DNA of 64,000 nucleotides from Deltaproteobacteria bacterium (GTDB taxonomy: Bacteria > Desulfobacterota > Desulfovibrionia > Desulfovibrionales > Desulfovibrionaceae): NCBI GenBank assembly GCA_009929215.1, contig SAAX01000002.1, forward strand, positions 1-64,000. The letters run 5' to 3'. Positions within the stretch are counted from its first letter, which is position 1. Each line of letters begins with the position of its first letter. The notes under the pieces were generated by a model. It was not told the origin of the DNA. It saw only the letters and a list, made by a program, of their open reading frames with translations, and made no database searches. Shown in pieces: positions 6,088-16,104 of this stretch. A program made the translations under genes and the position numbers.

Positions 6088-8076
6088 CTAGTCGGGGATG
6101 ATCTGGTAGTAGGGCTTCTTGAAGATATGGGTCTCGCCGGTGGCGGGATTGTACTTCGAGTTCACGAAGCACTTCCAAGCGTCGTCGTCCAGGCCCATGA
6201 AGTCCGCACGGTAGTAGAAGCCGGGGTAGCGGGATTCTTCACGGAAGGAGATGTGCTGCATGTGCAGGCGCACCGTCCACAGACGATGGTAGTTTTCCCA
6301 GCAGCGAAGCAGTTCGTGCAGGTCACGGGCGGCCAGCTTGAAGGAATCTTCTTCCATCATGGCAAGCAGGTTGAAGCCGGTGTCGAGCAGAGCCTTCGAG
6401 GTGGTGTAGTACGTGCTCACGCCACCGCCGTATTCGTCGGTGCACTTCACGAGACGCATCATGAAGTTCTTGGGCGTGATGTAGTTCGGGTTCACCACGG
6501 GATCGGTAGAAGCGGCCTTGCCTTCTTCAAAGTTGTAGAAGGGACGGTAAACCAGCTTCTTCAGTTCTTCGGCGGTTTCAGCGAACTCAGGCTTGAAGTC
6601 CTTGTGATCGAGGCACCAGCGAACCATCTGCTTGCCAGCGATACGGCCTTCAGCATGCGAACCGGAGGAGAACTTGTGGCCGGAAGCGCCCACGCCGTCG
6701 GCGCAGGTGAAGAGGCCTTCAACGGTGGTCATGCGGTTGTAGACCTTACCGTTGGAAGCTTTCACTTTGTAGTCTTCGGGCACCCAAGCTTCATCGGGAC
6801 CGGAAACCCAGATACCGCAGCAACCGGAGTGGGAGCCGAGCAGGTAGGGTTCGGTGGGCATGATTTCGGAGCCGCGTTCTTCAGGTGCGGTGTTGGTGCA
6901 GGCCCAAAGGTTGGCCTGGCCCACGCACATGTCGAGGAAGTCTTCCCAAGCTTCGGATTCAAGATCCTTCTGCTGTTCTTCGTTAAGGGTCGCGAAGGTG
7001 GTCTGCAGGGCGGTCTTGGTGTCCATGTAGATGGGGCCGCGGCCTTCGCGCATTTCACGAAGCATCATGTGGTTACGCAGGCAGGTCGGAATGACATGGC
7101 CCTTGGCGTAGCCGCGATCTTCGTAAGGCTTCAGCATGGCGCGGTTGGTGGCGCAGTAATCTTCACCCTTGGAGTTGGTGGCTTTGGCCTTGAACAGGAG
7201 GAACCACGCACCCACGGGGCCGTAACCGTCCTTGAAGCGGGCGGGCACGAAGCGGTTTTCCATCATGGTCATTTCAGCGCCAACCTGAGCGCACATGGTG
7301 TAGGTCGAACCGGCGTTCCACACAGGATACCAGGCGCGGCCCATGCCTTCACCGGTGGAGCGGGGACGGTACACGTTAACGGCACCGCCAGCGGCCACCA
7401 TGATGGTGTTGGCTTTGAAGATGTGCACTTCGTTAGCGCGCAGGTTGAAGCCCACGGCGCCAGCGATGCGGTTGGGGGTATTCTTATCGAGAAGCAGCTT
7501 CACGATGAAAATACGTTCCATGATGCGGTCTTCACCCAAGGCATTCTTGGCAGCTTCGGCCACGATGCACTTGTAGGATTCACCGTTGATCATGATCTGC
7601 CAGCGGCCGGAACGCACAGGGGCGTCGCCCTTGCGCAGGCTCTTGCCAGCAGCCTTAGCGGCAGCGCCGTTCAGGTTGTGGCCGTCGTCACCCTTGATCC
7701 AGCAGGGAAGGCCCCAATCTTCGAACAGATGCACGGAATCGTCAACGTGACGGCCGCAGTCGAAGATAAGGTCTTCGCGAACCAGGCCCATAAGGTCGGT
7801 ACGGACCATGCGGACGTAGTCATCGGCGTCGTTATCACCCAGGTAGGTGTTGATGGCGGAAAGACCCTGAGCCACGGCGCCGGAGCGTTCGAGGGTGGCT
7901 TTGTCAACCAGCATGATCTTCAGGCCGTGCTTGTCGCCCCAGCGCACTGCTTCAAAAGCGGTGCCGCAGGAACCCATGCCGCCGCCCACGATCAGCAGGT
8001 CAACAGCATGTTCTTTCACTTCAGGCTCGGCAATGGCCACACCCTTCGTCGCTTCCTTGACGGGAATCATTGGCAT
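6088..8076 (-). CDS. aprA: Adenylylsulfate (APS) reductase alpha subunit
   Basis: 662-aa flavoprotein MPMIPVKEATKG…VDLLIVGGGMGSCGTAFEAVRW…; downstream of aprB. Confidence 0.97.
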   Translation of the reverse strand: MPMIPVKEATKGVAIAEPEVKEHAVDLLIVGGGMGSCGTAFEAVRWGDKHGLKIMLVDKATLERSGAVAQGLSAINTYLGDNDADDYVRMVRTDLMGLVREDLIFDCGRHVDDSVHLFEDWGLPCWIKGDDGHNLNGAAAKAAGKSLRKGDAPVRSGRWQIMINGESYKCIVAEAAKNALGEDRIMERIFIVKLLLDKNTPNRIAGAVGFNLRANEVHIFKANTIMVAAGGAVNVYRPRSTGEGMGRAWYPVWNAGSTYTMCAQVGAEMTMMENRFVPARFKDGYGPVGAWFLLFKAKATNSKGEDYCATNRAMLKPYEDRGYAKGHVIPTCLRNHMMLREMREGRGPIYMDTKTALQTTFATLNEEQQKDLESEAWEDFLDMCVGQANLWACTNTAPEERGSEIMPTEPYLLGSHSGCCGIWVSGPDEAWVPEDYKVKASNGKVYNRMTTVEGLFTCADGVGASGHKFSSGSHAEGRIAGKQMVRWCLDHKDFKPEFAETAEELKKLVYRPFYNFEEGKAASTDPVVNPNYITPKNFMMRLVKCTDEYGGGVSTYYTTSKALLDTGFNLLAMMEEDSFKLAARDLHELLRCWENYHRLWTVRLHMQHISFREESRYPGFYYRADFMGLDDDAWKCFVNSKYNPATGETHIFKKPYYQIIPD

Positions 8077-8113: not shown

Positions 8114-8602
8114 CTAGCGGCCGTGTTCCATGCAGGTGAAGGACTTACCAGCGTCCTTAACATCGAACTTCTTGCCAAGGGCGGTCTTGGGAGCGACCAG
8201 GGCAGTCTCGGTGAACAGCAGTTCATCTTCGATGTTGGCGCCTTCAGGATGACCTTCGAAGGGCTTGATGGAACCTTCCGGCGTAGTGCGGATGGGGAAC
8301 TTGAAACGTTTCACATTGCCATTGCGGAACTTGACGGTCCACATGATGGAGTCGGCCGAGCGCATGGGGATACAGGTACCGCCCATGGGAGCAAAGTCTG
8401 CGTAGGGGCGAGCCGTGATGGCGCCCTGGGGGCAGATTTTAACGCAGGAATAGCATTCCCAGCAGGCTTCGGGTTCCTGATTGTAAGCCTTCATTTCCTC
8501 AGAATCCAGGATCATGAGGTCGTTAGGGCAAATGTACATGCAGGCCGTCTTTTCGCCACCCTTGCAGCCGTCGCACTTGGACGGATCGACAAACGTCGGC
8601 AT
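8114..8602 (-). CDS. aprB: APS reductase beta subunit (2x[4Fe-4S])
   Basis: MPTFVDPSKCDGCKGGEKTACMYICPNDLMILD … CWECYSCVKICPQGAI. Confidence 0.97.
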   Translation of the reverse strand: MPTFVDPSKCDGCKGGEKTACMYICPNDLMILDSEEMKAYNQEPEACWECYSCVKICPQGAITARPYADFAPMGGTCIPMRSADSIMWTVKFRNGNVKRFKFPIRTTPEGSIKPFEGHPEGANIEDELLFTETALVAPKTALGKKFDVKDAGKSFTCMEHGR

Positions 8603-9094: not shown

Positions 9095-10891
9095 ATGACC
9101 GACAACTCCAACGATTCCCGCGCACCACGTGATAAGCGCGAAGGACGGGGCCCCCGCGGCCCGCGCAGCCCGCGCAATAGCCATGACACCGGCGATTCGC
9201 GCGCCCGCAAGCCGCTGCGCGAAGTGGTTTGCGAAATAGACCGCGACATTCTGCGCCTGCTGCTGCGCCGTAACAACATTCTTGAACGCATGCGCGGCGA
9301 CAGGCCCCGGCTCGACTCTGCCGAAGAAAAAAATATTCGCGAATCGTGGGAGGCCGCCGTTTCCCACATCAGCCGCGATGCGCGCCTTTCCGGCCACTTT
9401 TTTTCGCTCATGCAGGAAGTGGAGTTTCAGCCCCGTCCCGCCTCTGCGCGCAACGATGCCGCTGAGGCTGGCGACAATGCTGGCGCAGCCATGCAGGAAC
9501 CGCCGCGCACGGCCTTTAACCTTGCGCCGCCCGCCAAACATGTACGTTTGCGCATGCCCGCGCCCCTGGCCTGCCGCGCCACCCGCGCATGGCTGATGCT
9601 GGCCGCCGCTACGGGTCAGCCGCTTCAGCTGTCGCCCTGTCTCATGAACGACCCCATTGTGGACTGCGTAAAGATGCTCAACCAGGCCGGGGCCTCGCTT
9701 ACCCGCGAGGATGAAGGCGTTTGCGCCCGCCCGGCGGCCCCAATTGGCGCGGCTGACAAGGTTTTGCACACCGGCGACAGCGCGTGGAACTTTTTCATGC
9801 TGCTGGGCCACTATCTTGGCCGCCCCTCGCGCGCCAAATTCACTGGCGATTCCAGCCTGAAACTGGCCGATTATTCTGCTGTACGGCACTTTCTGCCCGC
9901 CCTTGGCGCACGCCTTGTTCACATTGTTCCCAAGAGCGACGGCCTGCCCGCACGCCTTGAATGCTCTGGCATTCTGCCCGATTCCGTAAAGCTGCCCGCC
10001 GATGTGCCCGCCGAACTGGCCGAGGGCATTCTGCTGGCGGCCCCCGGCTACGAAAGGGCCATAACCCTTGATCTTTCCTCGCACCCCGACCACAGGCTCA
10101 TTGTGGCGCGCGTGCTACCCATTTTGCGCGCAGCTGGTGCAGACGTGCAGACCGAGGGCGCAAAAGTGCGTGTAAACCCCGGCCCGCTCAGCCTGCCCGC
10201 CAAGCCCGATGCGGGCATGGAACCTGAACTGGCGCTCTTTTTGCTGGCCCTGCCACTGGCCCTTGGCGGCGAAGCCCATCTGGGCGGCCAGTGGCCCGCC
10301 CTGCCCGCAGCAGAGGCTGGCTGGGACCTGCTGAAGCAGCTTGGCCTTGACCTGCGCTATGAGGCAGGCAAAGAAGGTGGCGAGGTCTGCGCCACGGCGG
10401 CTGCGCCCCTCAAGCAATACGCCAGGGGCGACCTGCCCGCTGGTTTTCCTGCCATGTGGGCTCCCCTGCCGCTGGCTCTGGCAGCCTGCGCAGCCCTGCG
10501 CGGCGAAAAGGCCGTTGTGCCCACATTGCCCAGCGGAACCGACAGAACGATGGTAGAAAGTTTTCTTTCGACAGTTGGGCTGGAATTGGATGAAAAAGGC
10601 TGCTTGTGCAAAAAAGAACAATCTGGCCCTAGAACGGGCTGGAATGCCCCCGACCCGGTATGGGCGATGGCACTGGCACTGGCTGCCTGCGCAAGCCCCC
10701 ACCAAAAGCTGGGCAACCCCGGCATCATGACCGGGCTCTACCCGCCTTTCTGGGCTCTGTACAATACGCTGCCCGAACCGGCCCTGCGCCGCTCTGCCGC
10801 GCCGGAAGCCCCGGCTGCCGCGCCCCGGCGTCGCATTATCACCGGTGCGGTGGCTGTGCCGCCTGAATTGAAAGACGAAGACGATTATTAG
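9095..10891 (+). CDS. Chorismate mutase-like N-terminal helical domain fused to a degenerate EPSP synthase-like domain
   Basis: LREVVCEIDRDILRLLLRRNNILERM…RES resembles AroQ-type CM; downstream region follows EPSPS segment order (MPAPLACRATRAWLMLAAATG…FTGDSSLKLADY…PALGA). Confidence 0.65.
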   Translation: MTDNSNDSRAPRDKREGRGPRGPRSPRNSHDTGDSRARKPLREVVCEIDRDILRLLLRRNNILERMRGDRPRLDSAEEKNIRESWEAAVSHISRDARLSGHFFSLMQEVEFQPRPASARNDAAEAGDNAGAAMQEPPRTAFNLAPPAKHVRLRMPAPLACRATRAWLMLAAATGQPLQLSPCLMNDPIVDCVKMLNQAGASLTREDEGVCARPAAPIGAADKVLHTGDSAWNFFMLLGHYLGRPSRAKFTGDSSLKLADYSAVRHFLPALGARLVHIVPKSDGLPARLECSGILPDSVKLPADVPAELAEGILLAAPGYERAITLDLSSHPDHRLIVARVLPILRAAGADVQTEGAKVRVNPGPLSLPAKPDAGMEPELALFLLALPLALGGEAHLGGQWPALPAAEAGWDLLKQLGLDLRYEAGKEGGEVCATAAAPLKQYARGDLPAGFPAMWAPLPLALAACAALRGEKAVVPTLPSGTDRTMVESFLSTVGLELDEKGCLCKKEQSGPRTGWNAPDPVWAMALALAACASPHQKLGNPGIMTGLYPPFWALYNTLPEPALRRSAAPEAPAAAPRRRIITGAVAVPPELKDEDDY

Positions 10892-10897
10892 AAAAAT

Positions 10898-10950
10898 AAC
10901 GCAACAGGCGCTGGCGGCACATCATTGCCCCCAGCGCCTGTTGCGTTTTG
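10898..10950 (+). terminator. Rho-independent terminator
   Basis: aacgcaacaggcgctgg / ccagcgcctgttgcgtt perfect 17-bp stem followed by tttt. Confidence 0.85.
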
Positions 10951-11072: not shown

Positions 11073-11522
11073 TTACTCCTGGGTAAAACGGAAGACACGA
11101 ACAGAAATGGGCTGCATGCTCTGACGGTTCATGGCCGCCACAACAAAGGCGTACTCCCTGCTCTGCCCACTGGGCGGGCAAGGGCCACGGTAGTGGCGGG
11201 TCAGGCCGCCTTCAGGAATGATGCCCGTTCCATCGTTGTTCCAAAGACCGCCGCCCAAAAACATCTCCTGCGAATCGCTGGTAAACTCCATGAGGCGCAC
11301 GTCGTAATAATCCGTGCTGGCAGGAGTTTGGGCCACCTGAATTTCGGGCGAGATGCGTGAGCACCGATGGACATCGCGCAGGGTAACGGTAACGGCCATG
11401 CCGTCAGGAACTTCCTGCGTCTCCTTTGAGGCGCACGCGGGCAGCAGTGCCGCCGCAAACAGCGCAGGAATGAGCACCCGCCGGGCTTTGCCTAAAAATT
11501 CAAAACGCATCAGAGCCTCCAA
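11073..11522 (-). CDS. Small predicted lipoprotein, possibly PEBP/YbhB-like
   Basis: Signal/lipobox …ALFAAALLPACASKE; C-terminal YRGPCPPSGQSREYAFVVAAMN. Confidence 0.6.
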   Translation of the reverse strand: MEALMRFEFLGKARRVLIPALFAAALLPACASKETQEVPDGMAVTVTLRDVHRCSRISPEIQVAQTPASTDYYDVRLMEFTSDSQEMFLGGGLWNNDGTGIIPEGGLTRHYRGPCPPSGQSREYAFVVAAMNRQSMQPISVRVFRFTQE

Positions 11523-15222: not shown

Positions 15223-16104
15223 ATGAGCGCAGCCGCTTGCACAGCCGCCGGCACGGCCCTTTATGGCGTCACCGGTTGGCCCTTGAGCCAAAGTCTTTCG
15301 CCCTTGCTGCACAATACGGGTTTTGCAGCTCTCGGCATCAACGCCCTGTACCTGAAGTGGGAAGTGCCACCCCAGAAGCTGCCCACCTTTGTGGAAAGCG
15401 TACGGCTGCTCAATATTCGCGGCTGCTCTGTCACTATTCCGCACAAGGTAGAGCTGCTGCCGCTACTGGACGAGGTGAGTCCGCTGGCCCGCAGCGTGGG
15501 CGCGGCGAATACCATTTACTGGAAGGGCGAGAGCCTGTGCGGCGAAAATACCGATGTTGCGGGCTTTATGGCCCCGCTGGGCAACGAACCCCTTGCTGGT
15601 GCTGATGTGCTGCTGCTGGGCGCTGGCGGCGCTGCGCGGGCAGTGGCTGCAGGCCTTGTAACAACTGCCCCGCACAACCGCCCTGCCAGGGTGTTTGTGG
15701 CCACGCCCTCAAACAAATCCCATTTGCCGCTGGCCGATGAATTTGGCCTTACCCCCCTGCTGTGGCAAGACCGCCACGAGCCCGTGTCCATGCTGGTCAT
15801 CAACACCACGCCCCTTGGCATGCGCGGCAAGGCAGAGCAAGAAACTCCGTACGATTTTTCACAGGCCACGCCCCTAGCGCCCGCAAACGATGCCCATGCA
15901 ACACCATTGGCCTATGACATTGTGTACAATCCTCTTGAAACACGGTTTTTACGCGAGGCACGGGCCGCTGGCCGTCGCTGCATTTCGGGGCTCGAAATGT
16001 TTTTTGGACAGGGCGATGCGCAGTTTCGCCTGTGGACTGGGCAAGGCCTGCCGCCAGAATCTCGGCGTGCCCTCGAAACAGCACTGGGGCAGCAGCCCCG
16101 TTAA
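15223..16104 (+). CDS. aroE: Shikimate dehydrogenase
   Basis: YGVTGWPLSQSLSPLLHN, SVTIPHKVE, GAANTIYW, LLLGAGGAARAV, NTTPLGM. Confidence 0.95.
   Translation: MSAAACTAAGTALYGVTGWPLSQSLSPLLHNTGFAALGINALYLKWEVPPQKLPTFVESVRLLNIRGCSVTIPHKVELLPLLDEVSPLARSVGAANTIYWKGESLCGENTDVAGFMAPLGNEPLAGADVLLLGAGGAARAVAAGLVTTAPHNRPARVFVATPSNKSHLPLADEFGLTPLLWQDRHEPVSMLVINTTPLGMRGKAEQETPYDFSQATPLAPANDAHATPLAYDIVYNPLETRFLREARAAGRRCISGLEMFFGQGDAQFRLWTGQGLPPESRRALETALGQQPR

Follow-up and report, generated by a model that had tools for sequence, protein, structure and literature searches.

The gene at positions 9095 to 10891 of the window (the whole stretch of DNA analysed here, 64,000 nucleotides long) encoded a protein in which a chorismate mutase (CM)-like domain was joined to a domain with the fold of EPSP synthase (EPSPS) and an erased EPSPS active site. 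This fusion protein, labelled FUS in this report, is well supported as a pseudoenzyme, and on balance it was probably repurposed as a non-catalytic binding protein, either an adaptor or a scaffold. The pseudoenzyme reading of the original prediction was strongly supported by the erased and unconstrained EPSPS site, a canonical aroA elsewhere in the genome, purifying selection and retention across the order. Within the open-access literature searched, including a search for EPSPS pseudoenzymes, no description was found of a FUS-like family or of any EPSPS pseudoenzyme that spans a bacterial order and keeps a remnant CM domain.

Layout and fold of the fusion protein

The open reading frame was confirmed on the forward strand with a length of 598 aa. 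The features of FUS and its surroundings are as follows.

6088 to 8076, reverse strand: APS reductase alpha subunit with FAD_binding_2, adjoining aprB; the name aprA is assumed from sequence knowledge
8114 to 8602, reverse strand: aprB, APS reductase beta subunit (Pfam APS-reductase_C), divergent neighbour of FUS
9095 to 10891, forward strand: FUS coding sequence, CM-like/EPSPS-like fusion of 598 aa, with intact orthologues in 179 of the 199 Desulfovibrionales genomes and dN/dS of about 0.1
9095 to 9211, forward strand: residues 1-39, RGP-rich disordered N-terminus (pLDDT from under 50 to 65), absent or different in other genera
9212 to 9430, forward strand: residues 40-112, AroQ-type CM-like helical domain, three helices in the model, with R59 and E78 invariant and W85 nearly so
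9509 to 10780, forward strand: residues 139-562, EPSP synthase fold with erased active site (Pfam, profile, AlphaFold, Foldseek and alignment)
9824 to 9970, forward strand: residues 244-292, new conserved N-lobe hairpin (K248, L255, G271, R273, P279, P285, R287, E289, G292), the best-conserved part of the EPSPS-like domain
10742 to 10753, forward strand: residues 550-553, P-P-F-W, also in the canonical AroA of the phylum as PxFW
10826 to 10837, forward strand: residues 578-581, RRRI, a basic motif conserved within the disordered C-terminal tail
10898 to 10947, no strand assigned: hairpin 3' of FUS with a 17-bp perfect outer stem

The AlphaFold model of the window protein (pLDDT 85.5, pTM 0.79) showed a mostly disordered stretch at residues 1-39, helices at 40-112, an alpha/beta two-lobe domain at 139-562 and a flexible tail at 563-598. 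The RGP-rich N-terminus noticed originally was therefore real, though it showed no conservation between genera. For a distantly related orthologue in genome G400, the model had the same pLDDT of 85.5 and a pTM of 0.83. Foldseek searches with both models returned EPSPS almost all the way down the list, with a TM-score on the target of up to 0.79, together with a single designed protein that has an EPSPS-like fold. A MurA-like identity was rejected because EPSPS ranked first.

The EPSPS homology and retained fold that had been proposed by eye were confirmed by Pfam and an orthologue profile as well as by the models. FUS matched Pfam EPSP_synthase with 25.4 bits, above the gathering score of 22.8. 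The match with the NCBIfam aroA model (TIGR01356) had an E-value of 5e-10 and 38.7 bits, far from the equivalog cut-off of 287.25, so FUS counts as a relative and not as a member. The aroA model matched 37 of 41 FUS orthologues, and a profile built from 41 orthologues aligned over almost the full domain with solved structures of EPSPS (E=3e-30). By models, Foldseek and profile, FUS has the EPSPS fold expected of AroA.

For the CM-like domain, the match of the window protein with the CM model TIGR01791 was weak (E=0.41). Pfam CM_2 was found in 25 of 43 FUS orthologues at E<=1, with a best value of 3e-11, and in 30 of 41 orthologues of a second set. The AroQ-type CM-like helical domain of the original prediction was thus borne out through the orthologues and the modelled helices, and was marginal in the window protein alone.

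Active-site residues and conserved positions

The alignment comprised 44 FUS orthologues, 50 canonical AroAs of the same phylum and E. coli AroA (sequence matched to 1g6s). Residue roles were assumed from established knowledge of 1G6S and E. coli chorismate mutase, and the CM residues were assigned on the E. coli CM sequence. K22, S23, R27, R124, S169, S170, Q171, S197, Y200, D313, K340, E341, R344, H385, R386 and K411 were identical in all 50 canonical AroAs; position 96 was G in 49 of them, and the position of E. coli N336 was H in all 50. When aligned with canonical AroA, the window FUS kept none of the 18 active-site residues, and the S3P/PEP-binding residues of AroA were accordingly missing. 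Most of the active-site columns were diverse across the FUS orthologues. Among 62 of these, mean entropy was 2.93 bits at the 17 comparable active-site columns compared to 2.33 bits at all comparable columns (permutation P=0.0015), while the active-site column entropy in canonical AroA was 0.02 bits. Since these columns exceed the average variability, the old EPSPS cleft is no longer under constraint, and this speaks against its hosting a new reaction. An EPSPS with shifted catalytic residues was rejected on the same variability of the cleft columns.

The loss of EPSPS motifs had been read correctly by eye with one small shift, as SSQ (E. coli 169-171) pairs with P-A-E and not with A-E-L. The statement that active-site residues are gone held for the EPSPS domain and did not hold for the CM domain. 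There, the equivalents of CM R28 and E52 (FUS R59 and E78) were invariant in the 62 orthologues and the equivalent of K39 was R or K in 54, R11 was retained in about a third, and R51, S84 and Q88 were mostly lost. FUS therefore lacks the full AroQ active-site set of R11, R28, K39, R51, E52, S84 and Q88. The fold without the catalytic residues was found in the EPSPS domain, and in the CM domain this was partly the case.

Residues that were invariant or nearly so in the 62 FUS sequences were R59, E78, W85, R273, P279, P285, R287, E289, G292, W523, N541, P550, F552 and W553. R273, P279 and E289 fall at positions that are variable in canonical AroA, and from EPSPS topology we take them to lie on a beta-hairpin off the cleft. 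In addition, the C-terminal tail motif (R/K)(R/K)R(I/V) was conserved across the 62 sequences. Judged from these alignments, conservation in FUS has moved to the N-lobe hairpin, the CM residues R28 and E52 and the basic C-terminal tail. The P-P-F-W of FUS is a trace of the ancestry held in common with canonical AroA.

Identity of FUS across families was low (about 25-30%). Comparison with the five closest orthologues gave an overall dN/dS of 0.09-0.11, and the lowest values were in the CM domain (about 0.05-0.10) and the tail (0.02-0.08). Overall, these values and the number of genomes with FUS showed that the gene is kept by selection, and a pseudogene was rejected by the dN/dS of about 0.1.

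Occurrence, canonical AroA and proposed function

FUS was found in 179 of the 199 Desulfovibrionales genomes, each at least 90% complete, and in 40 of 44 genera, normally as a single copy; a smaller search found it in 57 of 61 genomes. Among 297 genomes sampled from the phylum, the matches listed from beyond the order had either the length of canonical AroA without CM or CM only in PheA-sized frames, and a search of plasmids gave no match. As far as searched in this phylum sample and the plasmids, the family is specific to Desulfovibrionales. In the phylogenetic tree, FUS formed one clade and the Desulfovibrionales AroAs another, with a support of 100 each, which indicates one old paralogue and not repeated decay. 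FUS was missing from four genera (g15, g216, g227 and g229), all with AprA and AroA, so its role is not essential everywhere. Calls of absence hinge on assembly completeness. A search artefact was considered unlikely for these genera, as two queries failed on genomes G263 and G323 and in g229 the order of sat, a small coiled-coil gene, acn and ppiD was intact with FUS alone missing between sat and the coiled-coil gene.

The check for a canonical aroA elsewhere in the same genome (G000) found one away from FUS, in an aro operon behind a PheA-like gene; the FUS gene lies outside that operon. This aroA was split by a contig break, as contig C161 ends in it and C137 begins in it, with the same stretch on both ends, and a TyrA-like gene was next on C137. 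Canonical AroA was present alongside FUS in 57 of the 60 genomes searched for it. The same aro operon has been reported in D. desulfuricans 27774 (Ddes_0334-0338; PMC5701242) and D. hydrothermalis (PMC4162548), and several chorismate-pathway genes of D. vulgaris Miyazaki appear essential (PMC5764234), as would be expected if they had no backup. Co-occurrence of FUS with the chorismate pathway broke down in two genomes only, G400 (1.7 Mb, four contigs, 99% complete) and G475 (98% complete), in which MurA was present, AroA and chorismate synthase (AroC) were both absent and FUS was intact, with its CM residues as in the other orthologues. A function confined to making aromatics or to feedback on it is unlikely because these two genomes, of which one is a draft, keep FUS without AroA and AroC.

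The divergent aprBA beside FUS was correctly noted, and the proposed look at its conservation found it in 37-38 of 62 orthologous loci; sat was beside FUS in 17 of the 62. FUS occurred without true-type AprA in 11 genomes of eight genera (G008, G388, G400, G402, G454, G416, G444, G460, G470, G475 and G477), several of them at least 99% complete, and seven tested genomes with AprA lack FUS. FUS and AprA thus occur independently, so the aprBA neighbourhood is no guide to the function of FUS, and the adjacency looks inherited. This pattern of presence and absence weakened the functional tie to aprBA and sulfate reduction suggested by the original prediction, and a tie to aprBA or sat was rejected. 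The recurrent neighbours of FUS in the 62 loci (apr, qmo, sat, coiled-coil, acn, ppiD and aminotransferase genes) gave no clear functional hint.

An ancestral EPSP synthase was probably joined to an N-terminal AroQ chorismate mutase domain, lost its chemistry and became a non-catalytic binding protein. A partner would dock on the conserved N-lobe hairpin (R273, P279, P285, R287 and E289) and also on the flexible basic (R/K)(R/K)R(I/V) tail, and the CM-like bundle could provide either a helical interface or a weak pocket for carboxylates, given that R28, K39 and E52 are kept. The chances are about even that FUS belongs to the core proteins of the whole order and acts without catalysis in a process that concerns neither aromatics nor sulfate, with the new N-lobe surface and the basic tail as docking sites for its partners. 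Against the binding-protein reading, the invariant R28 and E52 with the basic residue 39 could point to a bound ligand or to some remaining activity.

A new enzyme, with another reaction located either in the CM-like pocket or somewhere new on the EPSPS-like domain, would account for R59, E78, R273, R287 and E289 being polar and invariant or nearly so, and pseudoenzymes can regain activity through migrated residues (PMC10211241). This is unlikely, however, as the EPSPS cleft columns vary more than average, Q88, S84 and R51 of CM are mostly lost and the conserved EPSPS-domain residues would, by topology, lie on the outer hairpin. The aromatic-pathway sensor or scaffold of the original prediction was weakened by the two genomes in which AroA and chorismate synthase are absent and FUS persists with unchanged CM residues. 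As a regulator or sensor of aromatic biosynthesis, FUS would bind chorismate or prephenate in its CM-like domain and its dead EPSPS domain would modulate canonical AroA or a different enzyme of the pathway. Precedent comes from the CM domain that some DAHP synthases carry, with feedback in known cases, both FUS domains stem from the pathway, R28, E52 and a basic residue 39 are conserved and canonical AroA coexists in most genomes. With the FUS gene outside the aro operon and four AroA-bearing genera without FUS, such a sensor is nevertheless quite unlikely.

The divergent aprBA and adjacent sat would fit an accessory protein of sulfate activation, acting with APS reductase or ATP sulfurylase, which was largely refuted by the 11 genomes with FUS and without true AprA and the seven with AprA and without FUS, and is very unlikely. 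That FUS still works as an EPSP synthase or chorismate mutase, using unusual residues, is highly improbable despite the full EPSPS fold and the partly kept CM pocket, since every EPSPS active-site residue is lost and unconstrained, the aroA score is far under the cut-off and a canonical aroA is present. A decaying pseudogene could explain the low identity across families, the genera that have lost FUS and the few internal stops seen in other genomes; it was effectively refuted by the dN/dS, by frames that are open in nearly all genomes with FUS and by retention in the 1.7-Mb genome.

Among known systems, AroA (TIGR01356, PF00275) has the complete two-lobe fold, motif order and C-terminal PxFW in common with FUS, whereas FUS has lost all substrate-contact residues, carries the CM-like domain and the tail motif and lies outside the aro operon. 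AroQ chorismate mutase (CM_2, TIGR01791) has a similar three-helix unit, with R28 and E52 invariant and K39 as R/K in FUS; FUS differs in that R51, S84 and Q88 are mostly lost and in being fused to EPSPS and not to PheA, TyrA or DAHP synthase. In the DAHP synthase/chorismate mutase fusions (NF009239) a CM domain is likewise joined to another shikimate-pathway protein, but in FUS it is joined to a dead EPSPS, and FUS outlives loss of the pathway. TyrA-AroA (NF011381), AroA-cytidylate kinase (NF008816) and AROM also hold EPSPS in a multi-domain protein; these fusions retain EPSPS activity, and none is a CM-EPSPS with an erased site. A Populus EPSPS reportedly acts as a transcriptional repressor, a precedent for a non-catalytic EPSPS role. 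This plant protein has a DNA-binding extension, unlike FUS, in which none was found. FUS represents a natural experiment, as it outlives its parent pathway and is independent of the adjoining sulfate-reduction genes, and its hairpin and tail are defined targets in genetically tractable Desulfovibrio strains. The labels "EPSP synthase" or "chorismate mutase" on FUS genes would be incorrect.

Downstream genes and flanking elements

In 26 of the 62 loci, FUS was followed in the same orientation, and sometimes overlapped, by a gene for a coiled-coil protein of about 83 aa from a family without Pfam match (e.g. L062:8645-8893, reverse strand). The gene lies behind FUS in most genera, and the family was found in 26 of 34 tested Desulfovibrionales genomes. 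In other genera (loci L055-L077 and L179-L189), FUS, the coiled-coil gene, aconitase and a PpiD-like gene lie beside sat and aprBA-qmo. The coiled-coil protein is a candidate partner that FUS might bind; it was not found in tested genomes of the window's genus and was retained where FUS is lost, so it is no obligate partner.

Beyond FUS in the window were a convergent lipoprotein-like gene, an aminotransferase, a rhodanese-like gene, a gene that we take to be flagellar-hook-like by our own reading, and aroE. The lipoprotein-like gene (11073-11522, reverse strand) was near FUS in 12 loci and had a sub-threshold match to phosphatidylethanolamine-binding protein. The aroE gene (shikimate dehydrogenase; 15223-16104, forward strand) followed FUS in the same orientation at a distance of 4.3 kb. 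Finally, the hairpin at 10898-10947 had a fold energy of -41.4 kcal/mol (z -9.4) and is likely a terminator common to FUS and the convergent gene.
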